DNA from: Lysobacter firmicutimachus
Lineage (GTDB): Bacteria > Pseudomonadota > Gammaproteobacteria > Xanthomonadales > Xanthomonadaceae
NCBI RefSeq assembly: GCF_037027445.1
Contig: NZ_JBANDL010000002.1
Location: 3,658,001-3,722,000, forward strand
DNA: 64,000 nucleotides
Reading direction: 5' to 3'
Shown here: positions 9,748 to 38,929 of the stretch, piece by piece
Layout: each line of letters starts with the position of its first letter
How positions within the stretch are numbered: the stretch's first letter is position 1
The notes under the pieces: generated by a model
Told to the model about the DNA's origin: nothing
Databases searched by the model: none
What the model saw: the letters and a program-made list of their open reading frames with translations, nothing else
Made by a program: the position numbers and the translations under genes

Positions 9748-9772
9748 CCCGCCCAAGCCGGATAAATGTGCG

Positions 9773-12507: not shown

Positions 12508-12529
12508 GATCGCTCGCTTCGGAGCGATC
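12508..12529. terminator. hairpin in the convergent gap
   Basis: GATCGCTC pairs with GAGCGATC around a six-base loop. It lies about 70 bp after the plus-strand racemase gene and about 130 bp after the minus-strand beta-helix gene, so it could end either transcript. No T-run is present. The rest of the gap 12440-12662 shows nothing further. Confidence 0.4.
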
Positions 12530-12662
12530 CGAGCGCGGGAAAGCCCACCCGCGCCCATTCGTTCAACGGAGCCAATGCATCGATGTCTCGCCGCGAGTAC
12601 GCCAGCGACCCGTTGCGAGCCACCAGGCCGAGCTATGAGCGCTCCATCGTCGTGCTCGTGCG

Positions 12663-14598
12663 TCAATTGACCGTGCACGTCAGGGTGACGGTCACGGATG
12701 CGCCAGCGGTCAAAGTGCCCAGCGCGACACCGGCTTCCAGCGCGGCAAGGGAAATAGGCGACGCCGGACAGCCCGCGCCGCTGCAAGTGGGGGGCGTGGT
12801 GCAGGTCAGGCCGACCCGACCGGCCGGATCTTGCACCACGGCACCGGTCACCGAACTGGAACCGTTGTTGGTCACGACTATGGCGTAGGTCGTGGTGGCG
12901 CCGCGAGCGAGACTATCGGCAGGCTGGTCGCTGGGACCGACGCCCGGCGTGTTGGTCTTGGTGATCAGAAGATCCGCCGTAGCCGGGCCGCTGAACTCCG
13001 AAGTCGATCCGATCGAGGTCGTCGCGGTCGCGACACAACCCGCGTTCTGGCACCTCGTAGCGGTCATCCTCAAGCTTGCAGGAGCAGCCCCGGAGACCGT
13101 GCAACTGCTAGGCGCGGTTGCGCTTACCCCCGTGACCACGCAAAAGCCAAGCCAGACTTGGCCCTCACCGAACCCTGTCGGGTCCAGACCTCCGGGATTG
13201 TTGTAAAAATCGATCCGATAGCCGTTGGCATTGGCCGCGGCATCCAAAGTGAAATTCACTGTGGTTCCGCTGATCCCCGACAGCACGGGAAAGTTCTGCA
13301 GCTCATTGGGGCCGGTGTCGCCATCGCCGGCATCGTTGAGCGTTACTCCGTCGTTGGTCAGATCGATGCCCAAACCGCCGTTGCCCGAAATGTTGGTATT
13401 GGCATAGACGGCATTGCCGGTGGCCGTAGCGCCCGTTATCCGAACGCCGTCGCCGGTGTTCCCCGTTATCGTATTGCCCGTTATCGTATTCTGGCCGATG
13501 ACCGTATTGGCGTTGCCGGTCAATGCGATGCCCGCTCCGCCGTTGTTGGTCAGAATATTTCCTTGCACCAGGTTGTCGTTGATCTGGGTCGCCCCGACGA
13601 CTCCAGCCCCTTCGAAAGCGATGCCTGAACCGATGTTTCCGGTGATCGTATTGTTGGTCAGCGTATTGCCGTCGGTATTGCTGCCGACGCCGCCGAACTG
13701 GGGTACCAAACGGATGCCGGCGAAGTTCGTTCCGGTAATGTTGTTGGAATCCACCAGCACGTTCGTGGCGCTTGCGACGCCGACGCCGTAATTCGTCCCG
13801 CTTATGGTATTGCCGGTAACCGTAGCGTTGTAGCCCGCGATCGCCGGGTTGTTGAAGATGCTGATGCCATAGAAACCGTTGGTGATGGTGTTGTTGGTCA
13901 CCGTGCAGTTGTCGCTATTGAAACAGCGGATGGCGTCCACGCCGCCAACGACGCCGGTGAACGTATTGCCGCTGATGACCATGTTGCTTACGCCGCTTAC
14001 CGCCACGGCTGGCTGACCGAAATTGGTGATGCCGATATTCAGCAACTGGCTGTTCGTGGCCGTCGATAGGAACGAGAGGGCCGAAAAATTTCCGCCGCCG
14101 CCATTCAGCGTGATGTCGCCGCCGCCGTTTATCACTACCGTATCGCTGATCGCCGGAAGCGCGGCTACCAAGTTGATGGTGCCCGCGCCGCTGAACACGA
14201 TCGTGTCGTCGACGATCGCCGTCAGATCCGCTGCGGCTAGCGCCGCGCGCAATGTCGTACAACTGAAGTTCGGGGCGATACCGGTACAAACCGGGGGGGG
14301 TCAATGTATCCGTTAGGCCGGTGACGGTATAAGTCGCGCCGACCGCCGCCCCGGACATGAAGATTAGACAGAAGGCCGCGTATCGCCATCGACGTAACGG
14401 TGCGCGCGACCCATTATTGCGCCGTCGATCTTCTACCGCCGGCTCCTTCGCACCGTCCGTCGGCGACCGCTGCGCAGCGAAAGCCCGATCGGCCGCGTCG
14501 AGAGGACATCGCAACGCGCCCGCCAGCCGATGGGTGCGCCCTCCGCGGCACGCATTGCGAAAATGCCCAAATACCGGAACGACGGAAGTAGTGCCCAT
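12663..14598 (-). pseudogene. secreted beta-helix/DUF11 protein, frameshifted at a C8 tract
   Basis: Two frames together encode a paralogue of the intact protein at 27730-29571. The N-terminal frame (start ATG 14598 after AAAGGGGG) gives a signal peptide and ATYTVTGLTD, then leaves the reading frame at a run of eight C (coding strand). The other frame resumes exactly with the CSLREA-like segment NFSCTTLRAAL, then many NTITNN-type parallel beta-helix repeats, and ends in a DUF11-like domain (ADLLITKTNTPG onward). Removing one C would restore a single open frame. It is probably a surface or secreted carbohydrate-binding or adhesin-type protein. It could be a true pseudogene, a phase-variable gene or a sequencing error. 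Confidence 0.75.
14293..14300 (-). repeat. homopolymer C8 (coding strand) at the frameshift
   Basis: Eight G on the plus strand, i.e. C8 in the coding strand, lie just after the signal-peptide region of the beta-helix gene. A tract of seven would keep the gene in frame; eight puts it out of frame. Confidence 0.9.
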
Positions 14599-14758
14599 CG
14601 ACGCCCCCTTTAGTCGAAGACCGTGACTGCCTCACGCTCCCTTTCGATCATCCTTTAATGCCCATCGACATAGCAACAGGTTTGATTGTCGGATTTATGC
14701 TGCAAGCAAAAATCGTGCCAAATCCTCCGATAGGACGAAGGCAGTGCAGGTGGCCGCC

Positions 14759-16654
14759 TCACTTCGGCGCATAAATTTCCGACAAGCGATCCGGACGCCC
14801 TTGGATTCGCTCGAGCTTGGGATACCTGTGGCCTCCGCGGTAGTCGATGCGGACCGATTTGATTGCATCGCCATCCTTGATCAGCAAGTCGATCCCCCGC
14901 CCCGCCTCTTTCGCAGCCGACACCGCATCCTTGAGCCGCTCGCCATTGCTTGCGTAGCCGTCGATCGCGATTACAGTGTTCCCGGGCGCGATGCCAGCTT
15001 CGAAAGCCGGCCCGTCCCAGCGCACGCTGGCCACCACGGAATCGGCCTTGGACATGCTCATCCCCAGCGAGTAGGTCAGATCCACGGTCTTCGTCTTTTC
15101 TTCGGAGAACTTCTCGAAGTCGCCCGGAACCTCGCCGTACACCAGCGTCCAACCGCTCGCAGCCAGACCGTCCAAAGGCGGCGCATGAGCGCCGAGGCGG
15201 TCGCGCAGATAACCGGCCCAGTCGAACTCGACGATTCCGTCGAGCGCCGACACCACTTGTTCGAAATCGTAGGCTTTGACCCGATAGTCTCCGTTCCTGC
15301 CGCCGAAGAACGCTCGGGCGAAGTCGTCCAGAGAATGCCGTTCGCCGCTGAGTTCGCGCAACTTGGCGTCGACCGCCAGCCAGACCAGTTGCGCGCCGGC
15401 ATAGTAGTCCTCGGCGAGCTGGTAGCTGGTGTACGACTTCGGCCTGCGTTGGGCGATGACCGGGTCGTAGACGGTGTCCTGCAACGTGCGCCAGGCCAGA
15501 CCGGGCCGATCTTCGCTATAGCGCGCCGCGGTCTGCGCCAAGGCCTCGCGGGCGAACTCCGGCCGCCATAAGCCGGAGCGCGCGGCCAGGACCTGTCCCC
15601 AATACTTGGTCTGACCTTCGTAAACCCACAGCAGATCGCCGCTAAGCGGCGAGTTGAAGTCGGACGACACGATTCCGGCCGGACGCCGGTACTTGCCGTT
15701 CCAGGCATGAACCAGCTCATGCGCCAGCAGGTCGTGCCTCAGCACGCCGGGGCCATCCCAGGAAGTGAAATAGTCGACGTCCAAACCGTTTTCGCTGGAG
15801 CGTTGATGCTCCAGGCCTATGCCCCCCATTTGCCCAGACAATGAGAACAGGAAATCGTAGCGGTCGAACGGATGCGATCCGAACAACTTGTACGCCTGGC
15901 TCAGCAATTCGCGATGGAACCGGATCTGCTCGGGCGTAGCCTCCAGGTACTTTGCAGCGTCGGCAAAAACGTTGAGCCGCACCGGCGTCTGCGCCCCCGG
16001 GCTCAGATCGAACTGCCGGTAGTGACGTCCGGCGAATACCGGCGAATCCAGCAAGGTATCCAACGACACCGGGCGATAATTCAGGCACCCGCCCTGGTGC
16101 GATCCGACCTCCAGCGCCGAGGCCGACTGCCAACCGCTCGGCAACTTCAACCCCGCGGCGACCTCGACGTCGCGCACGTCGCTCCCGGCCGGATACAGCA
16201 CGACTTGGTTCCACTGCACGTTGAGCATGTCCGGCGTCATGACCACTCTCCCCTGGGTACCGCCGGTGGGGGTAAGCATGTCGAAGCTCAGCTCCAGCTC
16301 GGCCACACCGTCGGGCACGACCAATCTGAAGGCGTAGACATTCAGCGCATCGCGATGCCAGGCGATGGGCCGACCGTTGCCGAGGATGCGCAGACCGGCG
16401 AACTTGTCGATCGGACCAACCGGCGAGTGATGCCCCTGAATCCATTGCGGAAACAACAACGTCAGCGCGCCCGGCCGCACCGGGACACGCTGACGCACGC
16501 GCAGGACCCGCCGCGCCACATCGGTGGCGTCGACTTCCAGCCGAAGCGTGCCCGGCGGTCGCGCCTGGTCGGGCGCGACCGCCTGAGCATCCGGCGACGA
16601 CAGCGAAACGGCGATCAACAGCGCCGGAGCGAGAATTCGAACGGCAAGGGTCAT
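14759..16654 (-). CDS. secreted M61-family metallopeptidase
   Basis: The 631-residue protein has a signal peptide (to about residue 25), an N-terminal beta domain, and a gluzincin-type zinc site HELVHAWNGK (His312, His316) with Glu346 in VYEGQTKYWG as the expected third ligand. A PDZ-like domain follows (about 510-600; SLGMSMSKADSVV, AGIAPGNTVIAIDG). This is the usual layout of M61 glycyl aminopeptidases, which remove N-terminal glycine and, more weakly, alanine. Glycine is every third residue of collagen, which fits the collagenase neighbours (inference). It starts 19 bp after the ald stop and is probably in one operon with ald. Confidence 0.87.
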   Translation of the reverse strand: MTLAVRILAPALLIAVSLSSPDAQAVAPDQARPPGTLRLEVDATDVARRVLRVRQRVPVRPGALTLLFPQWIQGHHSPVGPIDKFAGLRILGNGRPIAWHRDALNVYAFRLVVPDGVAELELSFDMLTPTGGTQGRVVMTPDMLNVQWNQVVLYPAGSDVRDVEVAAGLKLPSGWQSASALEVGSHQGGCLNYRPVSLDTLLDSPVFAGRHYRQFDLSPGAQTPVRLNVFADAAKYLEATPEQIRFHRELLSQAYKLFGSHPFDRYDFLFSLSGQMGGIGLEHQRSSENGLDVDYFTSWDGPGVLRHDLLAHELVHAWNGKYRRPAGIVSSDFNSPLSGDLLWVYEGQTKYWGQVLAARSGLWRPEFAREALAQTAARYSEDRPGLAWRTLQDTVYDPVIAQRRPKSYTSYQLAEDYYAGAQLVWLAVDAKLRELSGERHSLDDFARAFFGGRNGDYRVKAYDFEQVVSALDGIVEFDWAGYLRDRLGAHAPPLDGLAASGWTLVYGEVPGDFEKFSEEKTKTVDLTYSLGMSMSKADSVVASVRWDGPAFEAGIAPGNTVIAIDGYASNGERLKDAVSAAKEAGRGIDLLIKDGDAIKSVRIDYRGGHRYPKLERIQGRPDRLSEIYAPK

Positions 16655-16673
16655 GGTCTTCTCCGACGATGGC

Positions 16674-17744
16674 TTACAGCGCCATGCCCTTCAGCGCCGG
16701 ATGGATCAGCTTGCCGCCCTCGACGTTGATGCCGCGCACCAGGGCCGGGTTGTTGCGCCACTCGTTGCCGGCCGCCAGCTTGTTGACCCACGGCAGGATC
16801 GCCGCGCAGATCGCTTGCGAGGAGGTCTGCGGCACCGCGCCGGGCATGTTGGTCACGCAGAAGTGGGTCACGCCCTCTTCGACGTAGGTCGGCTCCTTCC
16901 AGGTGGTCGGGCGCGAGGTCTCGAAGCAGCCGCCCTGGTCGATCGAAATGTCGACCACCACGCTGCCGTCTTCCATGCCCTTGAGCATTTCTCGGGTCAG
17001 CACGTGAGGCGCGCGCGCGCCGGTGACCAGCACCGCGCCGATCACCAGGTCGGCCGAAGCCACTTCGCGCGCGACCACGTCCACGTAGGGGTACAGCGCG
17101 GTGACGTTGTTGCCCAGGCGCATCATCTGGTCCATGCGGTCCTGGCGCATCTCGAACACGGTGACGTTGGAACCGCCGGCCGCGGCCAGCGCCGCCGACG
17201 CGCCGCCGGCCTGGCCGGCGCCGAACACCACCACCTTGCCGCGCTCGGTCGACGGCAGGCCGCCGAGCAGCTTGCCCTTGCCGCCCATCGGCTGGTGCAG
17301 CAGGTGGGTACCGACCTGCACGCCGATCTTGCCGGCGATGATCGACATCGGCGCCAGCAGCGGCAGGTCGCCGTTGGGCAGCTCGACGGTCTCGAAGGCG
17401 ACGCCGGTCAGGCCGATGTCCAGCAGCTGCTTCGTCAGCACCGGCTCGGCGGCCAGGTGCAGGTAGCAGAACAGCAGGTGATCGCGGCGCAGATGCTGCA
17501 GGTCGCCGGCGATCGGCTCCTTGACCTTGACGATCAGCTCGCCCTTTTCGTACAGCGCGGCGGCGTCCGGCGCGATCTTCACGCCCAGGCGCGTGTAGTC
17601 CTCGTCCTTGAAGCCGCTTTTGATGCCCGCGTCCTTTTCCAGCCAGACCTCGTGGCCACGCTTGACCAGGTCGCCCGCCGCGGCGGGAACGAGCGCCACG
17701 CGCCCTTCGAGAGTCTTGGTTTCCTTCGGTACGCCGATACGCAT
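16674..17744 (-). CDS. ald: alanine dehydrogenase
   Basis: Ald oxidises L-alanine to pyruvate and ammonia with NAD+, a catabolic entry for alanine. The 356-residue protein has Arg15, Lys75 and His96 at the positions known for pyruvate binding and catalysis in this family (MRIGVPKE..., KVKEP, YLHLAAE), and a Rossmann GAGQAGG motif. Length is slightly below the usual ~370. The start is the ATG at 17744; the open frame extends to 17873 but would translate through a terminator hairpin. M61 follows 19 bp downstream. A strong intrinsic terminator directly upstream (17760-17796) suggests attenuation or an insulated leader. Confidence 0.93.
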   Translation of the reverse strand: MRIGVPKETKTLEGRVALVPAAAGDLVKRGHEVWLEKDAGIKSGFKDEDYTRLGVKIAPDAAALYEKGELIVKVKEPIAGDLQHLRRDHLLFCYLHLAAEPVLTKQLLDIGLTGVAFETVELPNGDLPLLAPMSIIAGKIGVQVGTHLLHQPMGGKGKLLGGLPSTERGKVVVFGAGQAGGASAALAAAGGSNVTVFEMRQDRMDQMMRLGNNVTALYPYVDVVAREVASADLVIGAVLVTGARAPHVLTREMLKGMEDGSVVVDISIDQGGCFETSRPTTWKEPTYVEEGVTHFCVTNMPGAVPQTSSQAICAAILPWVNKLAAGNEWRNNPALVRGINVEGGKLIHPALKGMAL

Positions 17745-17759
17745 TGCAGTCTCCAGTGC

Positions 17760-17796
17760 GGCCCAGAAAAAACGCCGCATGCGCGGCGCTTGGGCC
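17760..17796 (-). terminator. intrinsic terminator immediately upstream of ald
   Basis: On the minus strand CGCCGC pairs with GCGGCG around loop GCAT and is followed by six T (17772-17767), a textbook Rho-independent terminator. An outer GGCCCA/TGGGCC pairing (17791-17796 with 17760-17765) encloses it. It lies about 150 bp beyond the collagenase stop codon at 17943 and only about 20-30 bp before the ald start codon, so it either ends the collagenase transcript or attenuates ald. Confidence 0.8.
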
Positions 17797-17942
17797 AGTT
17801 CGCCTAAGTGGTGGTTTCGTGTAGTGAACGCGCCGATGAGTAATACAGGCGACGGCGCACGCCTTTGAACCAAGCTTCGTCTCTCGACGATTCCGAAAGC
17901 GGGGCGTGGCAGCCGCGACGCCTCGCTTCGTTGTCGCAGCGA

Positions 17943-20789
17943 TCAGTTAGTAACGAACTGCGAGGAGATGGTCATGCCGCTCGCCACGCCCCCCTTGCTA
18001 TATACCGCCAAGGTATGCACGCCTGGGATCGGCCGATCTATCAGGATCGACTCGCCGTTGCCTGGCTGGATAGAGCGATACATGTTCCAGGTCTGGTCCG
18101 CCCAGGTGACCGGGGCCGGATTAACGGAAGACGGACCGAGGACATAGAGATCCGCCTCGCCGGTACCGCCGCCGAGAGTTATCCGAAGCTGCTTGATACC
18201 CACGGGAACCGTCACATAGAAGGCAGCCCGATAGGTGCCGCCATACAGAACCGTAGACGCGGTGCGCTTACAGCTCTGGCCCAGGCGACGCGCATCCGGG
18301 TCCGAGCACGTCGGAAATTCCGCAACAGTGACCGAGTCCCGAACGATACTCTCGGCACCCTTGTCGTCGACGACTTTCAGCGTTACGTCATAAGTACCCG
18401 GGGCCGAAAAGCGCTTGACAGGAAACAAGCCGGTTACTGTGGCGCCATCGCTGAAGGACCAGGTCTGAGAGGCGATACTGCCGTCCACATCCTTTGAATA
18501 GTCGGCGAACTGAACCGTCAGACCACTAATGATCGACTTGAAATCGGCCGTCGGCGGCTTGTTCATGGGGCAGCCTTGTGCGCCCACATTCCCGACGCAG
18601 GCAAGCCAGTTTTTGAAGTCGACATCGAGCGATGTGCCGATATCATTCATGTAACCGGCGTAGTCGCTGTAGTCAGGAGCAGAACGCAGATACGACAGGA
18701 TCGAGCTCACTTTTCCAGGGCGCTTTTCGAACATATAGCGTACCGCGAGATAGCCCCATTGATAGGTTCGAGTCTGTCCGCTGTTCTTATCGTTTTTGAA
18801 GATCGTACTGATTGGATAAGTCGCCAACCGAGCTTGCGCAATCGCCTGGTGCGCTCCGATCTTCATGTATTCATAGGACACGTACTCGGCGAGACCTTCG
18901 ATCCACCATCTGGTCTTTGCCGTCTGACCCAACGCGTAATCTCCGTACGTGTTAAAACGCCCATCTAGGTAGTGAACGTATTCGTGATTTAGGTTCCAGA
19001 TCGAAAACTTGGCCCTCTCCCATTGCGCTTCGTGCGCAATGAATTTGGCCTGATTACCTACCGCGGCCGGTTTCCCTTCGAGGTACTTACCGCCGTTATT
19101 AGTGTCGATCCCAAACAGGGCGTGGCCATAGGCGTCATACATAAACTTGCTGTTGAAGGCGAACACCTCCAGCGAAGAGGTATTATCGTCTGCTACCGGC
19201 ACCTTATTCGTCATTAGCTTGCTGTGAAAGAAGCTCTCCTGGCCCGATAGCTCGGCGCATGTCGCCGACAGCTCCGACGCGAGCATTGATTGCGCACGGA
19301 TCTTCAATGTCGAGCTGCACACGTGGGTATCCGGAAAGACGTCTGCCATGACGCTTTCCTTGTAATTGCAGGTTCCATATGCGGAGCAATTGGCGGCATC
19401 GTAACTGCTCACCGCTTCAGCCAAGCGCATCCAAACCCCGGCGGTGACCGATCCATTAATAGGCGACGATTTTGCTAGCAGATTTTTCACTCGAGATGAG
19501 GCTGCAGCCTCGGCTGCGCCACCATGCTGCATGAATCGGGTCATCTCGCCGACCGCACTCATTATCACATAATAGTGCTTACTGTAGAGAACCAAAAAAT
19601 TTCGGTCGACGAGGTTATAAAGCGAGGTAATGATCGAGGTGTCCGTCTGAACGTACTGTCCGAGCTCACTCCCAATTTTATTTTTCTTGGAAAGGGCGAT
19701 TAAAGTGCGATCAAGCGCCAACCTCATCCAATTGTAGTTATTCCATGAATTGTCGTATCTCGCATACATGTCTTTGAACACAGGTAGCTTGTACGTTACA
19801 GAGTCGGATCCGATAACGAGGATGAAGTAACTTTCGAGTACCTCGCCATTGGCATCGTCGACCTTCTTAAAGTTGGTATTGGCCGAAAACTTGTCTAATG
19901 CGTTTCGGATAGCTGCAGTCAGGCTAGTTCCGTACTCTCCGACCGCCGACTTTTGGTAGTACTGCACATAATACCCAGCCCGCATGAAGTACATCAGGTT
20001 CAGTATTCCGTTGCTGTTCGTCCCGTCATAGCCTGCCGAGTGACTCGTGATCGCATTCGCGACAGTTATCATCTTCGATTCCGCGAACGTGGCCCCCGCA
20101 TCCGTGCCCGTCAGGCTATGCAAGGTGTCGAGGCAATCGAGGCTGGCGGCCTTTATGCTGGACACCAGTTCGCTACCGCTCACGCTGGAGAACTGCTTCG
20201 AATCGCAGGTTTCGGTCGTTGCCGCGACGGCGCCGTCCTCGAGCCCAGCCGGGCCTTCGACTGGTTCCGACTTGGCTCGTGCTTTCTCTTCCAGCTGCCG
20301 CGAGGGACGCGGATAGAGTTCCTGTCCCGGCCGCAGCGGATTGTTGTAGTCGGACGCCAGGCGGACCAAATCCGGATCAATCAGCGGGCCAAGATCCGGC
20401 AGAGCCGTGATTCCGTGATGATCATGCAGCACGCTGAGCTCCATCTCCAACGTGCCCGGCGGTCCGCGACGAGGGTCGTGGCGATCCGCATCCCGGCCTT
20501 GAGCCTCGCTTCCACGCAAGTCGCTCTCGTCGCTGGACATGCTGTCGGGGCGAGGATCGGCCTCTACACGTGCATGCAAGGACCGCGCTCCGACCTGTCC
20601 GGGCTCCGCATGGGCGGCGTTCGAAGTCGCTCCGCTGTCCCTCCCTGTGAGCGTTGCGGTTGCGCGCGAAATAGCCGCGACCAGCGCATTGCTTTCGCCG
20701 GACGCCCCGCCCCCCATCGTCGAGAGCGCGGCCACCGCGATTATCGCGGTGCAGGCCGCCACTCTGCCCTTCGTTTTCCCAACTGACAT
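17943..20789 (-). CDS. M9-family collagenase, copy 1
   Basis: The 948-residue secreted protein begins with a signal peptide (TAIIAVAALSTMGGGAS) and a propeptide-like stretch to about residue 165. The M9 collagenase module (about 190-740) has the zinc motif HEYVHYLDGRF (His602, Glu603, His606) and Glu635 in EGLAEY as the expected third ligand. A PKD domain (about 745-826; GLTVQFADYSKDVDGSI) and a pre-peptidase C-terminal domain (about 845-948) follow; both are typical collagen-binding or secretion accessories. It should cut native collagen outside the cell. It is the last of three tandem paralogues. Its DNA is visibly more AT-rich than the other two, for example around 19560-19700. Confidence 0.92.
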   Translation of the reverse strand: MSVGKTKGRVAACTAIIAVAALSTMGGGASGESNALVAAISRATATLTGRDSGATSNAAHAEPGQVGARSLHARVEADPRPDSMSSDESDLRGSEAQGRDADRHDPRRGPPGTLEMELSVLHDHHGITALPDLGPLIDPDLVRLASDYNNPLRPGQELYPRPSRQLEEKARAKSEPVEGPAGLEDGAVAATTETCDSKQFSSVSGSELVSSIKAASLDCLDTLHSLTGTDAGATFAESKMITVANAITSHSAGYDGTNSNGILNLMYFMRAGYYVQYYQKSAVGEYGTSLTAAIRNALDKFSANTNFKKVDDANGEVLESYFILVIGSDSVTYKLPVFKDMYARYDNSWNNYNWMRLALDRTLIALSKKNKIGSELGQYVQTDTSIITSLYNLVDRNFLVLYSKHYYVIMSAVGEMTRFMQHGGAAEAAASSRVKNLLAKSSPINGSVTAGVWMRLAEAVSSYDAANCSAYGTCNYKESVMADVFPDTHVCSSTLKIRAQSMLASELSATCAELSGQESFFHSKLMTNKVPVADDNTSSLEVFAFNSKFMYDAYGHALFGIDTNNGGKYLEGKPAAVGNQAKFIAHEAQWERAKFSIWNLNHEYVHYLDGRFNTYGDYALGQTAKTRWWIEGLAEYVSYEYMKIGAHQAIAQARLATYPISTIFKNDKNSGQTRTYQWGYLAVRYMFEKRPGKVSSILSYLRSAPDYSDYAGYMNDIGTSLDVDFKNWLACVGNVGAQGCPMNKPPTADFKSIISGLTVQFADYSKDVDGSIASQTWSFSDGATVTGLFPVKRFSAPGTYDVTLKVVDDKGAESIVRDSVTVAEFPTCSDPDARRLGQSCKRTASTVLYGGTYRAAFYVTVPVGIKQLRITLGGGTGEADLYVLGPSSVNPAPVTWADQTWNMYRSIQPGNGESILIDRPIPGVHTLAVYSKGGVASGMTISSQFVTN

Positions 20790-21059
20790 GAATCACCTCA
20801 TATCAACGACTGCTGCTGTGATGCGGCACTGGCTGCTCGACGTCCTTGCTCGTACCGTTCGGCTTAGCTGCCTATAACGCGCTCGGGCCGCGACTCGTTT
20901 CGCGTTCGCGAATAAGCGGATCCCACCCGCCAGAATCGAAAGGGATACACTCACAGGCTTCGATGGCGATGCTTAGCTTGTAAAGCGCGCAGCCCCGCCC
21001 CTACCCATGTGACGCCGCGGGCGAGGCATCGTCGCCTCGCTCGTTTTCGTGCGGTCTTT
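20790..21059. other. leader of collagenase 1 and 3' end of collagenase 2
   Basis: The minus-strand leader before the ATG at 20789 has GCCGCATCAC, then ATATG and an AGGTGA ribosome-binding site, in the same order as in the leaders of the other two collagenases. No separate gene is seen in this 270-bp gap. Confidence 0.5.
21021..21040 (-). terminator. hairpin after collagenase 2
   Basis: GCGAGGC pairs with GCCTCGC around a six-base loop, 20 bp beyond the stop codon of the minus-strand gene. There is no T-run in that direction, so it is a weak terminator or a stabilising hairpin. Confidence 0.45.
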
Positions 21060-23906: not shown

Positions 23907-24135
23907 GACTTACCCCCCATTTCAACAACGGCGATACGGCCGGTTGCGCAAATTTCGTTCGGCGCACCTGTTTCGCTGATTGCCAAGCGCATAGACCGCG
24001 ACGATTGCAGCGGACCGCGACAGAAGAAGCGACGCGATGCCCCGCGGAATAGGCACCATGCCGTGTATCGGACGATGAACTGGACCCTTGAAAAGAGCCG
24101 TTTCCGCACCCGTCGCTTGCGCCGGGTGCGATAAA

Positions 24136-24165
24136 CGGACGGGGCCGACTCAACGCCCCCATCCG
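24136..24165 (-). terminator. terminator-like hairpin after collagenase 3
   Basis: On the minus strand CGGATGGGGGC pairs imperfectly with GCCCCGTCCG and is followed by TTTAT, just beyond the stop codon at 24171. It is a plausible Rho-independent terminator with one bulge and one wobble pair. Confidence 0.5.
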
Positions 24166-24170
24166 ACAGC

Positions 24171-27005: not shown

Positions 27006-27729
27006 GTTTCACCCCTTACATGCTTCTGCAACGGTGATGCGGCTTCGAATGCGCAACTTCCATGCGTAACGTGTTTCGGTCGGTTCCATGGCGCTTGAAA
27101 ACCGCAGTGATTGCGATCGATCGCACCAGGCCTTATCGGCTACTCGTCGGCGCGATCGCTGCAGGAACGCTCATCGTCGATAGGCAATGGCCTCCTTCCA
27201 GATGCGCGTGAGGAAACCGCCGCGGCAGCGGCGCCGCCCCAACGGAGGCGAACAGCGGCCAAGTCCCTGGGCGCAGCCACGGACAGCAGTGAGCGGCCGG
27301 TATCGGAGCAAGCCATCGCGTGCGCCACCGGTTCCAGGCGCCGCAACGTCCGCGCGTTTTCCGACCGGCATCGACTCCACGGAGCATCCGTCCGCCGCGC
27401 CCGCAAACGGACGTCTTCTGGAGCGACTGCCGCTGCTGCGGATCGGCAAAGCATCGGAGCTATGTTCCGGCCGCCCCCACGTCATCCGCCCCGCCGATGT
27501 CCGATGTGCCATGCCGCCCCCTCAAATTCCGGCGACCGAGTCGCCATTCGTATAACGTATACGTATCGATATCAGGCACGTCCCGAGTGCTGCAAGACAC
27601 ACTCGAAACCTCCCTCATCGCACCGTGTCTCCGACCAGGTACCGAGGCCGGCGACCTCGCGCCAAGTCGTCGAATCGCTTCCGTGCTTTCGTCCTGGCGG
27701 CCGCCCTGCGCCGCGGGCTGCCGCCGGGC
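27006..27729. other. 724-bp non-coding region upstream of collagenase 3
   Basis: No gene is supported. The right part is the 3' flank of the beta-helix gene ending at 27730. The left part must hold the collagenase 3 promoter; no clear -35/-10 pair was found. A GTATAC-type element at 27546-27564 is listed separately. Open frames here have Arg/Ala-rich, non-protein-like composition. Confidence 0.45.
27546..27564. promoter_or_regulatory. candidate operator, matches the 9.8-kb site
   Basis: ATTCGTATAACGTATAC agrees at 16 of 17 positions with the element at 9804-9820, and its right part forms the perfect palindrome ACGTATACGT (27555-27564). It lies about 540 bp upstream of collagenase 3 on the minus strand. 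The role as an operator is inference. Confidence 0.35.
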
Positions 27730-29571: not shown

Positions 29572-29942
29572 ATCGATATCCCTTGGAAAGGCCACAGACC
29601 GGCGCTCTAAGCCCGGGCAGCGTGACTCCCCGAAGAAGCACTGGCCGGCGCCGACGTCGGTCCGACGCAGTGCTGTTGAATGGACAATAGAAATGCCTGT
29701 GACGGGCCGGCCGGCTCGATTAAGCCAACGTTAAGCTTGGTGAGATTGCCGCTCTGCGGGCCCGTACAGCAGCTAAAGACGGGCTCTGCCCCCTGTCGGC
29801 ACGAGCGCGAACCACCGCAGGCCGCCCGGCAAGCGAGGCGACACCGGAAACCGTTTTCGAGGCAGAACCGGGCGGCGCAGACGCGCGGCCGCAAAGGAAT
29901 CCGACGATTCCTCGCATACCCGAGCCTTCGCATAACCTGCCC
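29572..29942. other. gap between beta-helix and S9 peptidase genes
   Basis: This 371-bp gap contains an AGCACTG/CAGTGCT inverted repeat around a CCGACGTCGG palindrome near 29637-29672, in the leader of the beta-helix gene. No gene or clear promoter was recognised. Confidence 0.4.
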
Positions 29943-32240: not shown

Positions 32241-32335
32241 TGACGGACGTTCCTCAGCTATTGGATTGCTTCGGCCGACTCGCAGCACCGAAGCGCTCAT
32301 GCGCTCCGGCGACCTGAGAACGGCCCCACGAGACT

Positions 32336-32378
32336 GCCGTTCCGCGAGGAGGCTCGGAACGCCTCCCCGCGGAACGGC
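32336..32378 (-). terminator. long hairpin between TonB receptor and S9 peptidase
   Basis: GCCGTTCCGCG and GGAGGC pair in order with GCCTCC and CGCGGAACGGC around loop TCGGAAC, with one internal mismatch. The 17-bp stem starts 16 bp beyond the receptor stop codon. It lacks a T-run and may be a processing or partial-termination site within an operon. Confidence 0.55.
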
Positions 32379-32393
32379 CGAGCTTTCGCTCGC

Positions 32394-35300
32394 TCAGAAC
32401 CTCTGCGTGTACTTCAGGTAGACGAAGCGACCGACATCGAAGCCGCCGTAGTAGGAAACGTTCGAGCTCGGCTGCGTGTACATGACCGGTCCATAGCGCT
32501 TGAAGACGTTGTTGACGCCCAGTGCGACCGATGCGTCCCAGGGGGTGTTCCAGCGGAACTGGACGTCGTTGAAAGTCGTCGACCCGTGGCGGTTCCGGCG
32601 CTGGATCTGCGTGACCGTCCCCTGCCCCGGCAGGCTCCCGGTCGGCGCCAGGCGGATTTCGCTGCATTCCAAATGGGGATCGCTCACGCCGGCGATGAAG
32701 TAAGTGCAACCTTCCTTCATGGAGGAGTAATAGCGGGCGGACCAGCTGATTCCGAAGTGGCCCCAATCCCAACCGATGTTCAGATTGGAGCGAACCCGGA
32801 ACGTGCTGGTGACGCCGACGTCCGAGATAGGAATGCGCGGGTTGTCCGTGCTGACGAAGTAGTCGCGCGACGTATAGGTGCTGTTGGACGTGACGACGAA
32901 ATCGCCGTATCCGGTCTTCTTGCGATAGGTGACATCGACATCGAACCCTTCGACCTTGCGGAAGCCGGCGTTGATGCTGGAGAACTTCAGGCTATTGACG
33001 TACCCCAGCGCCGGGTCGCGGGTGAACGACGATCCCGCGGACGCTTCGCAGCGGCTCTGGATGCCCAGAACATAGCAGTCCGCCAGCATGTTGGTCGGGC
33101 TGTCGGCGACGATCGTCTGCGAAATACGCATCTTCCACCAGTCCACCGCGATGTTCAGCCCGTCGATGAAATCCGGGCTCCATACCGCTCCGATCGTCTG
33201 CGACTTCGACACCTCCGGGGTCAAGCCGGGGTTCGACTCCGACCTGAACGCCACCGGCGTCTGCGCATTCGGCGCTCCCGCCGGCACCAGCCCCTGCGCG
33301 AGCTGGCGGAAGGTATTGGCCTTCGCGCCCATGTCGCGAACGCAATTGGCGCGCGTGGTCGGGTTGCTGCTCGAGCTGCCGAAACTGGTGTCGCAGGGAT
33401 CGGTGAAAGCCGAGAACGTGTCCGACCCGCCACCGTACAGGTCGGCGATGGTCGGGGCGCGGAAGCCGTCGTTCACGGTCGCACGCAGCAGCAACGACGC
33501 CACCGGGCGCCACTTCAAACCGAACTTGTTGTTGGTGGTCTGGCCGAAGGTGTCGTAGTCGGAGAAGCGGGTGGCGATATTGAGCGTCAACTCCTTGGCG
33601 AAAGGCTTGTCGGCCAGAATCGGAATCTCCGTTTCGGCGTAGAACTCGTTAACGCTGTACCGTCCGCCGGTGGGTCCGGCCGCCAGCGCGGTCGTCGTTC
33701 CCGCGATCGCCGCCGCCGAGGGCGTGAAGGTGCCGGACTCCACCCGGCGTTCGATGCCCGCGGCCAGCCCGACCGGGCCGGCAGGCAGGTCGAACACGGT
33801 GGTTGAGACGTTGGCCGATACCACCTTGGTCTTCGTCTCGCCGCGCGCGGTCTCCGGCTGCGACAGGAACGCCTGCAGTTCCGGATTCCCGGTCAGACCG
33901 CCTTCGCCGATCACGCCGTATCCCAGGAACGGGTTGAACGGCACGCAATCGCTGAACGGGATCGGCGCGGCCGCCGTGCCGCACTGGACTCGCCCCTGCG
34001 CGTTGAGGAACGAAGGCCCCACCGCCATCTGCGTGTTGGGCGTATTGAGGTTCCCGTAGCCCACATGGCGCGACTTGTTGTCGTTGTAAAGAACGCCGAC
34101 ATCCCAATCCACATAGCGATCGCGCCATTGGAAGCTGCCCTCCAATGCGCTCGAAACCCGAAGCGTCTTCAGGTTGCCTTCGGTGATCCGGGGCATTTCC
34201 CACGTGCGGCGCCACCAGCTCCTGATGGGTGCGGAGGTCGGGTTGAAGTAGCTCTGGGCCGACATGCCGGGCACCGTCGGAGCGAACGACGCGGCCTGCA
34301 TGGGCATGCCGGCGGTGCTGCGGGCGTTGTCCCGCTCGCCGTACAACAGGTTGGTCCGCCAGCTGAGGCTGTCGCTGAAGCGGTACCGGCCGTCGACGAA
34401 GAGCGACTTGGACTTCAACGGGGTCCGCAGATCCGTCTGGGCGTTCGGATTGCTCTTGTGCCGGCTCGATCCGGGCACGCACCCGTTGATCGAGGCGCCA
34501 GCCGATACGGCGCAGCTGCCGGTGTTTACGTCTTGACGAATATAGTCCGCCGGCGTGCGCGGATTGCCGCCGTCGCGCAGGACCACCCGAGTCCCGTTGG
34601 GAATGCCCGGGATGCGATTGGTGGCCGAGGTCACGAAGCCGCCGCCGGCGCTGACGGTAGACCAACCGTCCGTTGGATGCAGATTGGAACGAGGATACGC
34701 GCTGAATTCCCGGTCGCTAGCAGCCACCCTGTCCTCGTCGCGGATTTCGCCCCCCACTGCAATCGAGAAGCGCTCGCCGGTATGCCCATAGGAGAAGTTG
34801 GCGTTGGTGATTCCGCCATCGCCCTGGCTGTATTGGCCTATGTATCCGCCGATGCTGGCGCCGTTGAAGTCGGCGCGGGTGATGATGTTGATGACGCCGG
34901 AAATCGCATCGGAGCCGTAGATGGAGGACGCGCCGTCCTTGAGCACTTCGATGCGTTCCACCATCGCCGCCGGAATCGACGAGATGTCGGCCAAGCCCCC
35001 GGTGGTCACGCCCAAGCGTCGACCGTTGAGCAAGACCAAAGTACGCGCCGCGCCGAGATTGCGCAGACTCACGTACGACCCGCCGACCGCTTCGCCCGAC
35101 AACAGCGGAGAGGCTCGACTCGCCGGCGGCGCGCCGGTCGCCGACACCGCCTGGAGAATGTCCGACACCGATTGGAAGCCCTGCTTCTCGATACTCTGCC
35201 TGTCGATGACGGTCACCGGCTGCGCCGTCTCCATGTCGACTTGCCGCAATCGGGTCCCGGTCACCTCCACTCGATTGACCGTCACCGGCGCCTTTTCGGC

Positions 35301-35417
35301 TTCTACGCCGCTGTTTCCGCCTTGCTCGGCTGCGTAACCCACGCAGGAGAAGACGGAAACGCCCGAGGCCAGCGCGACTACGATGGCGTCGCGGAGCGGA
35401 TTGGTTTGCATGAACAT
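32394..35417 (-). CDS. TonB-dependent outer-membrane receptor
   Basis: The 1007-residue protein has a signal peptide (VVALASGVSVFSCVGYA), a TonB-box-like VEVTGTRLR near residue 50, and a plug domain (QPVTVIDRQSIEKQG ... LVLLNGRR ... IEVLKDGASSIYGSDAISGVINIITR). A long beta-barrel follows and ends in phenylalanine (TQRF). It imports a bulky substrate using TonB energy. Its place upstream of the S9 peptidase and next to the collagenases suggests peptide uptake (inference). The start at 35417 has AGGGGG at six-base spacing; a second ATG is two codons on. Confidence 0.88.
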   Translation of the reverse strand: MFMQTNPLRDAIVVALASGVSVFSCVGYAAEQGGNSGVEAEKAPVTVNRVEVTGTRLRQVDMETAQPVTVIDRQSIEKQGFQSVSDILQAVSATGAPPASRASPLLSGEAVGGSYVSLRNLGAARTLVLLNGRRLGVTTGGLADISSIPAAMVERIEVLKDGASSIYGSDAISGVINIITRADFNGASIGGYIGQYSQGDGGITNANFSYGHTGERFSIAVGGEIRDEDRVAASDREFSAYPRSNLHPTDGWSTVSAGGGFVTSATNRIPGIPNGTRVVLRDGGNPRTPADYIRQDVNTGSCAVSAGASINGCVPGSSRHKSNPNAQTDLRTPLKSKSLFVDGRYRFSDSLSWRTNLLYGERDNARSTAGMPMQAASFAPTVPGMSAQSYFNPTSAPIRSWWRRTWEMPRITEGNLKTLRVSSALEGSFQWRDRYVDWDVGVLYNDNKSRHVGYGNLNTPNTQMAVGPSFLNAQGRVQCGTAAAPIPFSDCVPFNPFLGYGVIGEGGLTGNPELQAFLSQPETARGETKTKVVSANVSTTVFDLPAGPVGLAAGIERRVESGTFTPSAAAIAGTTTALAAGPTGGRYSVNEFYAETEIPILADKPFAKELTLNIATRFSDYDTFGQTTNNKFGLKWRPVASLLLRATVNDGFRAPTIADLYGGGSDTFSAFTDPCDTSFGSSSSNPTTRANCVRDMGAKANTFRQLAQGLVPAGAPNAQTPVAFRSESNPGLTPEVSKSQTIGAVWSPDFIDGLNIAVDWWKMRISQTIVADSPTNMLADCYVLGIQSRCEASAGSSFTRDPALGYVNSLKFSSINAGFRKVEGFDVDVTYRKKTGYGDFVVTSNSTYTSRDYFVSTDNPRIPISDVGVTSTFRVRSNLNIGWDWGHFGISWSARYYSSMKEGCTYFIAGVSDPHLECSEIRLAPTGSLPGQGTVTQIQRRNRHGSTTFNDVQFRWNTPWDASVALGVNNVFKRYGPVMYTQPSSNVSYYGGFDVGRFVYLKYTQRF

Positions 35418-35839
35418 CGTTTACCCCCTGTGATACCGGCCCCGCATCCGGAGCCTGTGATGGAGTGGATCGAAAGGCGGGTTTCCGACCTCTTGCAGCG
35501 GTACGTCCTGCGCCGTGCGGTTGAAAACGGATCGCCACGTCGGCCAGGGGCGCGACATGACGACCGGAGAAACCCGGGTACACCGGTAGAGGCCGGCCGC
35601 GATCGCCGCGACCGCCCTCTTTCCGTCTGATGACCGTCCATGGGCGAATTGCTCGCTTTCCGCATGTCTTTCGGTTATGCGCGCAGCTCCCAGCCCTCGT
35701 TCGCGGCCGCCATGACGGATTCCGCGGAGCTCGCTCGCGTCCGACGATGCGATCCGGCGCCTCGGCGCCGGCCCGAGCCGATTGCGGCCCGGTCGTATCC
35801 GCGAAGCTGGCGATAACTTAGGCACGGCGGTTCTCGTCC
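35418..35839. other. gap upstream of the TonB receptor
   Basis: This 422-bp gap is the TonB receptor leader (minus) and the 3' flank of the TSUP gene. The leader has GCCGGTATCAC followed by AGGGGGTAAAC before the start codon, similar in order to the collagenase leaders. No gene is supported. Confidence 0.4.
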
Positions 35840-36721
35840 TTAATTCGGACTTGCCGGCACGCGCGCGACTCGGCGCGACTTGGCCGCCGATCGCAGCAGC
35901 AGCAGGGCCGTGTACAGCGCCACCGAGACCACGCCCCAGCGCAGTGCCGCCAACGGCAGTTGCTTGACCACGTACGCCGCCAGCATCACGGCGGGAACGC
36001 CGCCGATCGCCAGCCCAATCACCACTTTCAGATCGATGCGCCGGGAGCGGACGAATCCCATGCCGCTGATCGGCATCAGGAAGGCGCAGGCTCCCATCAT
36101 CACGGGGAAGGCGGCAGTCGGGCTCAGCCCGAGCAGGCTCAGAATCACCAGCGAAGGCGCGTACAGGCCGATGCCGAAGCTCATCAGCATGCCCAGTACG
36201 AGATGCGCCATCACGGCGACCGCGAACTTCGCGCCGCCGAGAGCGAACGCGTCGCCGCCGGCCGGCAACAGATCGAGATTGGTCGCCGCATACAGAGCCG
36301 CGGCGATCAGCATCGCCAGGCCGACCATCCATTGCACATGACGCGTAGCCACTTTGGTGGCCAGCTGCGTACCGATCAGCGCACCGTTCACGGCCGCTGC
36401 GATGCAACCCAGAAGCAGCAGCGGGTCGATGTATATCAAATGGATGAAGACCAGCGCCTGCACCAGCGTCGGCAACGCATGGCCGGCGTTGAGGACGGCA
36501 GGCATGTAGCTGTCGGGCACGAGCTTGCGCAGCTTCAGATACGCCGTCGTCGGCGCGAAGGAGCCGATGCCCAGCGTATCGAAGAAGTTCGTCGCCGCGC
36601 CCAATCCGATCGCTTCATAGTTCGGGCGCAGTTCGGATCGTTGATAAGCGGTCGCCGTCAAGACGATCAGGAACAACACGGCCAGCAAGCCCAGCGCAGC
36701 GAACAGAAGGATCGTCGTCAC
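35840..36721 (-). CDS. TSUP (TauE/SafE)-family membrane permease
   Basis: The 293-residue protein is highly hydrophobic with about eight membrane segments, for example LLFAALGLLAVLFLIVL, ALVFIHLIYIDPLLLLG and AHLVLGMLMSFGIGLYA. It resembles TauE/SafE (DUF81) anion or small-molecule transporters. The substrate cannot be told. The start is taken as GTG at 36721 with a GGAG site seven bases upstream. An ATG at 36802 lacks a ribosome-binding site and adds a non-hydrophobic leader. It is divergent from the DHDPS-like gene, sharing a 332-bp control region, so it may export or import a compound of that pathway (inference). Confidence 0.75.
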   Translation of the reverse strand: MTTILLFAALGLLAVLFLIVLTATAYQRSELRPNYEAIGLGAATNFFDTLGIGSFAPTTAYLKLRKLVPDSYMPAVLNAGHALPTLVQALVFIHLIYIDPLLLLGCIAAAVNGALIGTQLATKVATRHVQWMVGLAMLIAAALYAATNLDLLPAGGDAFALGGAKFAVAVMAHLVLGMLMSFGIGLYAPSLVILSLLGLSPTAAFPVMMGACAFLMPISGMGFVRSRRIDLKVVIGLAIGGVPAVMLAAYVVKQLPLAALRWGVVSVALYTALLLLRSAAKSRRVARVPASPN

Positions 36722-37053
36722 GGCACAGCTCCGGCGCTCGCCGAGCGCATGCCCGGACCAGGAGCGCAGCCACGCCGAAGCGGCGACTTCCGCAACCGCC
36801 ATGACGGTTGCGGCAGGTGATCGAGCGCGATCGAACCCAGCCTGCGCTCGCGCTTACCGTCGCACGTCGACGGATTCCGGCCGCGTGCTTGGCGGAGCGA
36901 TGTCCCCCCCGGCACCAGGCGTACAGCCTCGTGCTTGGCCAGAACCGATTCCCCTTCACGGATACGCAAAGTGAGCCCCTCGCCGACGCTTGACACTAAA
37001 ATTTGTATCTTGTATACGATATACCGTGACAGCTGTCAACAAAAGGTCCGCAG
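36722..37053. other. divergent control region, TSUP / DHDPS-like lyase
   Basis: This 332-bp region has no gene. Its right end carries the promoter and operator entry below. The left 270 bp are GC-rich with no clear signal seen for the minus-strand gene beyond its GGAG ribosome-binding site. Confidence 0.5.
36990..37038 (+). promoter_or_regulatory. promoter with GntR/FCD-like operator
   Basis: TTGACA (36990-36995) with a 17-base spacer precedes TATACG (37013-37018). Over this -10 lies ATCTTGTATACGATAT, an imperfect palindrome (12 of 16 positions symmetric) with a TTGTATAC core like known FCD-type GntR operators. A perfect 12-bp palindrome, TGACAGCTGTCA, follows at 37027-37038. The gene for an FCD regulator is two genes away, so repression by it is a direct prediction. 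Confidence 0.55.
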
Positions 37054-37974
37054 ATGATTCGCGATGTCTCTCTATGGCGCGGCGTGGTGCCCGCGGCGAC
37101 GACTCAGTTCGCCACGGACATGTCGGTCGATATCGACGCCACGCAACGCGTCCAAGACGCGTTGATCCGCGACGGCGTCCACGGGCTGATAGCGATCGGT
37201 ACGGTCGGAGAGAACAACTCGCTGGAACCGGACGAGAAAATCGCGGTTCTCGCAGCGGCGGTAGAAGTGGCCGCCGGGCGGGTGCCCGTCATCGCAGGCG
37301 TCTGCGAACTGACCACGGCACGTGCGGTCGCATTCGCCCGGGCCGCCGAGGACATAGGCGTATCGGGACTGATGGTCTTGCCGGCGATGGTCTACGTACC
37401 GACGGAAGCCGAACTGGTCGCGCACTTCCGCGCGGTGGCGACCAGCACCTACTTGCCGGTCATGCTCTACAACAATCCCCCGGCCTATCGGGCCGAGGTC
37501 ACGATGCGCACCCTGGCCGCCCTCGCGGACCTGAAGAACGTCGTCGCGCTGAAGGAAAGCACGCCGGACCCTCGTCGCTTTACCGATATACACAACGCCT
37601 TCGGCGATCGTTACGCGCTGTTCGCCGGACTGGACGACATCGCCCTGGAGGGGCTGCTGCTGGGCGCCCGCGGCTGGGTTTCCGGGCTGACCAACGCGTT
37701 CCCGCAAGAATCGCTGGCGCTATGGAAAGCGGTGCAACGCGGCGACCTGGCTCAAGCCTTGATCATCTACCGCTGGTTCATGCCCCTGCTCCATCTCGAT
37801 GCGGCGCACGACTTGGTGCAGGCCATCAAGCTCGCCGAAACCATCATGGGCCGCGGCAGCGAGCGGGTACGCATGCCGCGCATGCCGTTGACGGGAGCGC
37901 GCTACAACGAAGTCAAGCGCTTGGTGGAAACGGCCGCGGCGACGCGCGCCTGCCTGTCCGATGTCGTGGCCTGA
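37054..37974 (+). CDS. DHDPS/NAL-family lyase, possible 1-pyrroline-4-hydroxy-2-carboxylate deaminase
   Basis: The 306-residue (beta/alpha)8 class I aldolase-type enzyme has the Schiff-base Lys167 (VALKES), Tyr139 (LYNNPPAY) and the GTVGEN loop near residue 50 (GTTGE in DapA). The segments SLWRGVVPAATTQF, GDRYALFAGLDD and IYRWFMPLLHLD recall the subgroup annotated as the deaminase that converts 1-pyrroline-4-hydroxy-2-carboxylate to 2-oxoglutarate semialdehyde in hydroxyproline catabolism (from memory, not searched). A FCD regulator follows and collagenases are close, which fits. It is unlikely to be the lysine-pathway DapA. Other sugar-acid or N-acetylneuraminate-type lyase activities remain possible. 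Confidence 0.6.
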   Translation: MIRDVSLWRGVVPAATTQFATDMSVDIDATQRVQDALIRDGVHGLIAIGTVGENNSLEPDEKIAVLAAAVEVAAGRVPVIAGVCELTTARAVAFARAAEDIGVSGLMVLPAMVYVPTEAELVAHFRAVATSTYLPVMLYNNPPAYRAEVTMRTLAALADLKNVVALKESTPDPRRFTDIHNAFGDRYALFAGLDDIALEGLLLGARGWVSGLTNAFPQESLALWKAVQRGDLAQALIIYRWFMPLLHLDAAHDLVQAIKLAETIMGRGSERVRMPRMPLTGARYNEVKRLVETAAATRACLSDVVA

Positions 37975-38120
37975 TCTGTCCATCGGCGCGGGATGTCCGC
38001 GGCCTGACTTGGCCACCGCACGCAGCGAAAAACGCGCCGCGTTTTCGGCCGTACGGCCGGCGGAACCGGCCGGAGCCGAGCGCGGATTTTCGGACAAAGA
38101 CTCTGCGCTAGACTGGGTGC

Positions 38121-38810
38121 ATGACCATTGTGAACCGCACTCTTTCCGAGCAGGCTTTCCAGATCATCCGCGAGCGGATCCTGTCGAATCGAATGCCGCC
38201 GCTGACCCTGCTCCGGCAGGAGGCGCTGGCGGCCGAACTCGGCATCAGCAAGATTCCCCTGCGCGAGGCGCTGACCCGATTGGAGCAATACGGATTGCTT
38301 CGCTCTAGCATCAATCGCGGTTACTACGTTCCGCCCTTGACGATCGCGGAAGCCGAGGAGGTTTTCGCTCTGCGGGTAAAGATCGAGCCCGAGGCCGCGG
38401 CTCAAGCCTGCCTGGAAGCCAGCGACGACGAGATCGAGACGGCGAAAACCGCCTTGGCGGCGCTGGAGGCCATATCAGGGGTCGATCCCCAGCAGACCGT
38501 AGCCTTCAATCGCGCATTCCATTTGGCGCTGATTCGGCCGGGAAACCGCCAGGTCACGTATTTGCTGGTGGAACGCCTGCACGTGTTGGCCGAGCGCTAT
38601 GTTCATATGCATCTCGAGCCCGCGGGACGCGACGCCAGGGCCCTGCGCGAACATAGGGACTTGCTGGCCGCCTGGCTCGCGCGCGACGCCAAGAACGTAA
38701 GCCTTCAGCTGACCCGGCACATCGTGCTTACTCTCCACGATCTTCGCCAGCAATTGTTCGAGAACGAAACCATTATCAAGTCGAACGTGCCGCCCAGACC
38801 GAACGATTGA
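38121..38810 (+). CDS. GntR-family (FCD) transcriptional regulator
   Basis: The 229-residue protein has an N-terminal winged helix (about 8-72; LSEQAFQIIRERILS, KIPLREALTRLEQYGLL) and a C-terminal all-helical FCD ligand-binding domain (about 85-220; NRAFHLALI, REHRDLLAAW). FCD regulators usually bind TTGTATACAA-like palindromes and sense organic acids or amino-acid derivatives. Such a site overlaps the promoter of the DHDPS-like gene 146 bp upstream, so this is its probable local repressor. In other bacteria FCD regulators control hydroxyproline catabolism. Confidence 0.88.
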   Translation: MTIVNRTLSEQAFQIIRERILSNRMPPLTLLRQEALAAELGISKIPLREALTRLEQYGLLRSSINRGYYVPPLTIAEAEEVFALRVKIEPEAAAQACLEASDDEIETAKTALAALEAISGVDPQQTVAFNRAFHLALIRPGNRQVTYLLVERLHVLAERYVHMHLEPAGRDARALREHRDLLAAWLARDAKNVSLQLTRHIVLTLHDLRQQLFENETIIKSNVPPRPND

Positions 38811-38929
38811 ACCCAGGCGCACCTTGCCTTCTGCATTCCGGTGAGGGCGCGCTTGGTTTCGGCGTCACGATGAGTTCGCGATCGCGGGAAGCTCGTGGAT
38901 TACGGCTTGCGCATTCAAAGGATATCTCA

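Follow-up and report, generated by a model that had tools for sequence, protein, structure and literature searches.

We analyzed a 64,000-nucleotide stretch of the Lysobacter firmicutimachus genome (the window; C2:3658001-3722000 of the 5.32-Mb genome) that carries an island with three tandem M9 collagenase genes, a gene for a lyase of the DHDPS family, and a gene for a GntR/FCD regulator. We consider it quite probable that this island extends, as an accessory element, a collagenase regulon under a GntR/FCD regulator of the type found in hydroxyproline clusters. By sequence, the basis for this reading is two GntR paralogues, one common operator (GTATA-N3-TATAC), and the presence of that operator before a gene for a DUF885-like peptidase, before the tandem collagenase genes, and before the lyase gene. 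Because the collagenases and a probable hydroxyproline lyase share this rare operator with a collagenase that most same-genus relatives also have, the arrangement suggests that collagen products may switch on collagen digestion.

A rare operator and its probable regulator

We read the operator pattern from three gaps: before the lyase gene, before the gene for collagenase C, and between an M9 gene and its GntR gene at 4.77 Mb. Because the pattern was derived from these gaps, we did not count them as tests, and only a fourth exact place tests it. We found that exact GTATA-N3-TATAC occurs at 4 places in the genome. Three are inside the island (Table 1), and the other lies at 4.77 Mb, between another M9 collagenase gene and the divergent GntR gene. 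The place that had not been used to derive the pattern was found by the genome scan at window position 9808, before the DUF885-like peptidase gene. The reversed pattern, used as a control, had 0 exact places in the same genome. Window places with two mismatches (3875, 9815, 11207, and 19755) were no more frequent than in shuffles or overlapped operator 1.

Within operator 3, the exact site begins 42 bp upstream of the start codon of the lyase gene. Judged by eye, this site overlaps the -10 element of a TTGACA-N17-TATACG promoter, which looks like the geometry of a repressor site. Our promoter scan, whose rule demands T as the last -10 base, omits this promoter.

We compared 59 genomes of relatives, 18 of them of the same genus. 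Exactly one exact operator was present in 13 of these 18, always in the gap between an M9 gene and a divergent GntR gene, and 389 to 506 bp from the M9 start (a range that includes the 4.77-Mb locus of L. firmicutimachus). In the remaining 5, we found no M9 above the cut-off, no site, and no GntR. We rejected the idea that the operator is a general GntR motif, as none of the 18 same-genus relatives has more than one exact place. Beyond the genus, such places were few (G040, 1; G042, 1; G053, 2), and the reversed control was equally frequent or more so there. An alignment of 14 footprints is weak evidence: the sequences were picked and centered by the exact pattern, so that their core is alike by construction, and only the conserved flanking bases may add something. 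In 14 Lysobacter genomes, the gap between M9 and GntR holds another conserved stretch, TTCCGTGA, about 25 to 30 bp from the operator toward GntR.

The window GntR shares 68% identity with the GntR that accompanies the collagenase elsewhere in its genome and 54 to 55% with the GntRs of two Sphingomonas hydroxyproline clusters; GntRs of other lyase-bearing loci (L018, L067, and L068) are only 26 to 28% identical. His 134, 178, and 200 are invariant in 5 aligned GntR proteins. In a tree of 98 GntR rows, 93 of them different, the Lysobacter proteins formed a clade of 23 rows (100/98) among hydroxyproline-linked rows. Twenty of the 23 rows are M9 linked, some genomes appearing twice, and the window and a Lysobacter psychrotolerans locus (L113) have both links. 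One further row (L110) is labeled hydroxyproline, its locus ending before the M9 genes.

We then took the best 80 of 278 confirmed GntR loci on genome contigs, with up to 10 kb on each side (some shorter), and counted tblastn matches above 90 bits. The lyase was present in 56 loci, an FAD (flavin adenine dinucleotide) oxidoreductase in 57, an epimerase-family protein in 53, a permease in 54, an Xaa-Pro peptidase in 47, and M9 in 7. These matches suggest that the GntR relatives elsewhere are mostly within hydroxyproline clusters. Three of the 56 lyase loci (L142, L172, and L175) were too close to a contig end and were dropped. In 45 of the other 53, the 250 bp upstream of the lyase gene contained an operator with no or one mismatch (4 exact); the reversed pattern reached 8 of 53, and dinucleotide shuffles reached 0.4%. 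The median start was -56, and 41 of the 45 started at -29 to -73; gene starts, and hence distances, are approximate in unannotated loci, where a simple codon-usage caller was used. After removal of the Lysobacter loci L110 and L113, the count was 43 of 51.

The lyase is a probable deaminase-step enzyme of hydroxyproline breakdown, judged by family, identity, and gene context. Among plasmid relatives, we opened 5 of 15 listed regions (1227 records matched in all). Their lyases are 68 to 72% identical to that of the window, and the regions carry a 4-hydroxyproline epimerase in 3 cases and an FAD oxidoreductase, an Xaa-Pro peptidase, and a GntR in 4 cases each. The 18 same-genus relatives have no close match (best, 40 to 44%), and the nearest lyase among the 59 relatives is 70% identical, in a genome of another family (G037). 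A relative of the lyase (P0003, 87%) and one of the DUF885-like peptidase (P0126, 75%) are listed with longest contigs of equal length, 10876 bases, and may therefore come from one metagenome contig.

The genome has its own hydroxyproline-type operon at C2:637-643 kb, about 3.05 Mb from the island and beside an AraC/PAS regulator gene. It encodes a Pro_racemase protein, a DAO oxidase, a second FAD protein, a lyase, and an aldehyde dehydrogenase. The Pro_racemase gene is the only one in the genome, and its product scored 438 bits, just below the cut-off of 442 for 4-hydroxyproline epimerase. Because no ketoglutarate-semialdehyde model matches the aldehyde dehydrogenase well, it is a candidate for that step by position. 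We rejected the window lyase as a plain copy of the lyase of this operon, the two being only 44% identical.

We found that the gene order around the lyase resembles that of L. psychrotolerans ZS60 (L113/L191), which has homologous GntR, lyase, and TauE genes, the operator, and M9. On one side of the ZS60 operator are an FAD oxidase, an M24 Xaa-Pro peptidase, M9, and an adjoining TauE (68% identical to the window TauE over 260 residues). On the other side are the lyase (80%), a 4-hydroxyproline epimerase (541.7 bits; cut-off, 376), an aldehyde dehydrogenase, and GntR. The best match of the aldehyde dehydrogenase is ketoglutarate-semialdehyde dehydrogenase, at 429 bits, below the cut-off of 770. 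Whereas the ZS60 cluster is complete, the window keeps only TauE, the operator, the lyase, and GntR there, together with a separate array of three collagenases. The window appears to have lost, or never had, the remaining ZS60 genes, and its TauE-operator-lyase-GntR end most likely represents a reduced version of a full ZS60-like cluster.

In another relative (G046; L065 10155-19384), an M9 gene stands before a codirectional hydroxyproline operon (epimerase family, DAO, Fer2, lyase, and aldehyde dehydrogenase) in which we found no GTATA-N3-TATAC operator. Because this arrangement lacks the operator, the M9/hydroxyproline neighborhood may have arisen more than once.

The island and its genes

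The feature is best read as one insert of 30.3 kb, because in the relative with the strongest right-flank match (G008) the two flanks are separated by only 175 bp and because the DNA on the right is common to same-genus relatives. In G008, window positions 6948-9463 and 39732 onward match, and the 175 bp between them has no match to the island. DNA from about 39732 rightward is common to 17 of 17 same-genus relatives. The G+C fraction is 0.626 in the insert versus 0.666 in the left flank and 0.700 in the right flank. The insertion place is variable among the three other relatives compared: G005 has 5.7 kb and G003 has 7.5 kb of different DNA there, and in G014 only the right side matched. The two ends of the island carry no convincing terminal repeats. 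When 12.5-40 kb was scanned for promoters and terminators, the numbers fell below the shuffle means.

The same-species genome G063 matches the window at 94 to 99%. A locus of strain HS124 (L110) corresponds to the right-hand portion of this island; its GntR is 97% identical, and its lyase, TauE, TonB receptor, S9, and beta-helix genes are 99 to 100% identical, to those of the window.

A sequence-only reading of this DNA had named three M9 collagenases, an M61 peptidase, alanine dehydrogenase, an S9 peptidase, a TonB receptor, a TSUP permease, the lyase, and the FCD regulator. Pfam and NCBIfam matches confirmed all of these where it had placed them. It had bounded the region at 12663-38810, and the comparison with G008 moves these limits to 9464-39731. 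We also found genes beyond its list: two for beta-helix proteins, an IS5/DUF4096 fragment, and genes for the DUF885-like peptidase and an Asp/Glu-type racemase.

Table 1. Features of the island, in window positions
Feature	Position	Strand	Evidence
Accessory insert (island)	9464..39731		G008 comparison, G+C
Operator 1, GTATACCGTATAC	9808..9820		Exact match
DUF885-like metallopeptidase, start 550 bp past operator 1	10371..11690	+	Relatives' names, motif, fold model
Asp/Glu-family amino acid racemase	11744..12439	+	TIGR00035 above cut-off; domain found in longer frame
Parallel beta-helix protein	12663..14252	-	Pfam
M61 peptidase	14759..16654	-	Pfam; paralogue at C2:4978067
Alanine dehydrogenase	16674..17744	-	Pfam; copy of core gene C2:2483479
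M9 collagenase A	17943..20789	-	Pfam, active-site residues
M9 collagenase B	21060..23906	-	Pfam, active-site residues
M9 collagenase C, first gene after operator 2	24171..27005	-	Pfam, active-site residues
Operator 2, GTATAACGTATAC, ~545 bp upstream of collagenase C	27550..27562		Exact match
Parallel beta-helix protein	27730..29382	-	Pfam
S9 peptidase with DPPIV_N domain	29943..32300	-	Pfam
TonB-dependent receptor	32394..35417	-	Pfam
TSUP/TauE permease, divergent from lyase	35840..36802	-	Pfam; L. psychrotolerans TauE likeness
Operator 3, two overlapping sites (one exact, one 1-mismatch)	37005..37024		Pattern match
DHDPS-family lyase	37054..37974	+	Pfam, identity, gene context
GntR/FCD regulator, paralogue of collagenase-linked GntR	38121..38810	+	Pfam GntR + FCD
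IS5-family (DUF4096) transposase fragment, near right insert end	38807..39385	+	Domain match

All three collagenases have M9_N, M9, PKD, and PPC matches (Pfam), and HEYVH and the downstream Glu are intact in each. They are 49 to 53% identical to one another. The M61 and alanine dehydrogenase genes, on the same strand and 3' of the collagenase genes, could be transcribed from operator 2. A paralogue of M61 is present in 17 of 17 same-genus relatives at 69 to 78%. The island alanine dehydrogenase gene is, judged by its identity, a recent copy of the core gene: it is 99.5% identical to C2:2483479 over 1098 bp (16692-17789), and the core gene is found full length at 92 to 97% in 15 of 17 same-genus relatives. 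The G063 assembly breaks at both ends of this copy, as at a repeat.

We call the peptidase DUF885-like because of the annotation of two relatives, a motif, and a weak resemblance in fold. The two relatives, among those listed, bear the name "DUF885 domain-containing," and HEGYPGHH is invariant in 19 aligned sequences. The structural model (predicted local distance difference test, 81) weakly resembles the putative lipoproteins 3o0y and 3u24 and M32 carboxypeptidases, with template modeling scores of 0.41 to 0.49 and high root mean square deviation. No Pfam family matched at E 0.001 (only DUF7858, at 0.018), and we therefore rejected it as a member of Pfam DUF885. A relative that is 98% identical is named L. 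antibioticus.

Outside the insert, a metalloprotease gene lies just to the left (6917-8710, plus strand). Its product combines four StcE beta-sandwich domains with a reprolysin-like one; G005 has two neighboring matches to this metalloprotease. To the right is a core gene block (39771-51953) that looks like one for amino-sugar use. It encodes a TonB receptor, GH31 with NPCBM, an AgaS-type sugar isomerase, a ROK kinase, a GatZ-like protein, a DeoR regulator, and an amidohydrolase.

A proposed mechanism and its alternatives

By analogy with HypR of Streptomyces coelicolor (PMC6608401) and the HypR regulons of Shewanella (PMC5343134), derepression by hydroxyproline or a product of it would be the simplest account. 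We infer what the regulator binds and in which direction it acts, as well as the reaction of the lyase. According to this model, without collagen products the regulator would keep the operator-bearing promoters off. When hydroxyproline or a derivative accumulates, the regulator would leave the DNA, and its release would allow the secreted collagenases and peptidases to be produced. The lyase would add capacity at the deaminase step, the other probable hydroxyproline enzymes being encoded 3 Mb away. We further speculate that Lysobacter recruited its collagenase regulator from a hydroxyproline cluster and that the lone lyase is kept because it drains the inducer, an imino acid derived from hydroxyproline, setting the threshold for a collagenase battery at two distant sites; we offer this tentatively and regard it as rather doubtful.

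Several observations weigh against control of these genes by a common operator and regulator. Operators 1 and 2 are about 550 and 545 bp from the next start codon, which is far for a simple repressor. By eye, there are hairpins between the collagenase genes, so that operator 2 may not serve all three. With at most one mismatch, we found no site at the genome's own hydroxyproline-type operon (L011, 637 kb), at its M9 gene at 3.49 Mb (L015), or at a second M9/GntR locus of L. psychrotolerans (L123). The M9/GntR loci of L. spongiae and L. penaei have degenerate sites, with 1 and 2 mismatches, and 4 of the 18 same-genus relatives have a single place that matches the reversed control. When one mismatch was allowed, the L. 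firmicutimachus genome had 7 places (two overlapping) versus 4 for the reversed control, so single one-mismatch sites may be chance. The additions are the overlapping site of operator 3, a site some 250 bp upstream of the M9 gene at 757 kb, and a third at 4956412 (G000:C2; L190 5413), which lies about 360 bp before a gene for a 940-amino-acid protein without a Pfam match. The site at the 757-kb M9 gene, and another one-mismatch site about 230 bp before an M9 gene of G008, would instead fit the favored reading. Finally, the branch leading to the window GntR is long (0.62), and the tree method gave a warning about such branches.

A possible but less probable alternative is that only the GntR-operator-collagenase part is functional and that the lyase and TauE genes are left over from a hydroxyproline cluster since lost, keeping their old operator but having little activity. 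Consistently with this, the epimerase, FAD oxidase, M24, M9, and dehydrogenase of the ZS60 arrangement are missing between TauE, the lyase, and GntR in the window, and the 637-kb operon encodes a second deaminase-type lyase. However, the lyase frame is open and 100% identical in the same-species locus L110, and the gene retains two overlapping operators and, by eye, a near-consensus promoter.

We think it unlikely that the 26- to 30-kb island is one complete collagen-to-carbon pathway, as the sequence-only reading had proposed for the whole 26 kb. Collagenases, peptidases, a receptor, a permease, and the lyase do lie in one insert, and the M61 and alanine dehydrogenase genes follow the collagenase genes. 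However, among the island genes scanned we found no epimerase of the usual family, no oxidase, and no semialdehyde dehydrogenase. We rejected candidate operators before the M61, alanine dehydrogenase, S9, and TonB receptor genes, because neither these nor the beta-helix genes have one of their own with at most one mismatch. Apart from the same-species locus L110, the 80 GntR loci had no match above 90 bits to M61 or alanine dehydrogenase, and most of their matches to S9 and the TonB receptor had low identity. Alanine dehydrogenase, moreover, appears to be a recent core-gene copy. On present evidence, S9, the TonB receptor, and the beta-helix genes seem not to be part of the unit, having no operator and no convincing linkage. 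The proposed link between collagen and hydroxyproline is partly supported, for the collagenases and lyase; its extension to every gene is not supported.

That the lyase acts on an unrelated sugar acid and lies near the collagenases by chance is very improbable: the DHDPS family is broad, the lyase meets no curated NCBIfam cut-off, and most of 120 listed relatives bear other DHDPS-family names or none, but the identity to lyases of hydroxyproline-type clusters and the operator common to those clusters and the collagenases argue against it.

Secreted enzymes of Lysobacter are of applied interest. The regulon that we favor would provide a candidate switch for collagenase production: an operator present at four exact places, two copies of the regulator, and a probable class of inducer. 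It also suggests how a regulator of the last, catabolic steps of a pathway could come to control the secreted enzyme that acts first; the L. psychrotolerans cluster has both ends.

Comparison with known systems

The sequence-only reading had taken the combination as undescribed, but collagenases in hydroxyproline regulons or clusters are known from Shewanella, Streptomyces, and Colwellia (PMC5343134, PMC6608401, PMC7883544). The HypR regulon of Shewanella and other Alteromonadales is reported to have a GntR-family regulator, hydroxyproline genes, three predicted secreted collagenases, and proline peptidases (PMC5343134). In our island as well, a gene for a GntR-family regulator accompanies those for collagenases and a probable hydroxyproline enzyme. 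In contrast, the core hyp genes are inside the Shewanella regulon, whereas the hydroxyproline operon of L. firmicutimachus itself lacks the GTATA-N3-TATAC operator. The main text of that report contains neither "Lysobacter" nor "Xanthomonad."

In S. coelicolor, HypR, a FadR/FCD GntR, is described as repressing a hydroxyproline operon and a putative M9 gene, and L-hydroxyproline induces transcription (PMC6608401). An FCD-type GntR is again linked to a hydroxyproline gene and M9. However, the operator there is CTNTGC(A/C)ATGTCAC rather than GTATA-N3-TATAC, and the collagenase gene lies apart, with no island.

The Colwellia collagen cluster groups M9 with an epimerase, D-hydroxyproline dehydrogenase, and peptidases, and in one genome also with a TonB receptor (PMC7883544). 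It holds a nearly complete pathway, with a cyclophilin (and in one genome also PutR), and the accessible text describes no GntR or operator. Our island does not match such a complete cluster: we found no epimerase, D-hydroxyproline dehydrogenase, or ketoglutarate-type dehydrogenase among the island genes scanned.

In the open-access papers searched, we found no report of a GTATA-N3-TATAC operator or its regulator in Lysobacter, and the main text of a report on GntR motifs (PMC4494728) contains no hydroxyproline, collagen, or GTATAC. Because collagenases have been reported in hydroxyproline regulons and clusters (PMC5343134, PMC6608401, PMC7883544), we concluded that the type of system is already known and that the operator, the M9/GntR pair of the genus, and the island appear to be new.

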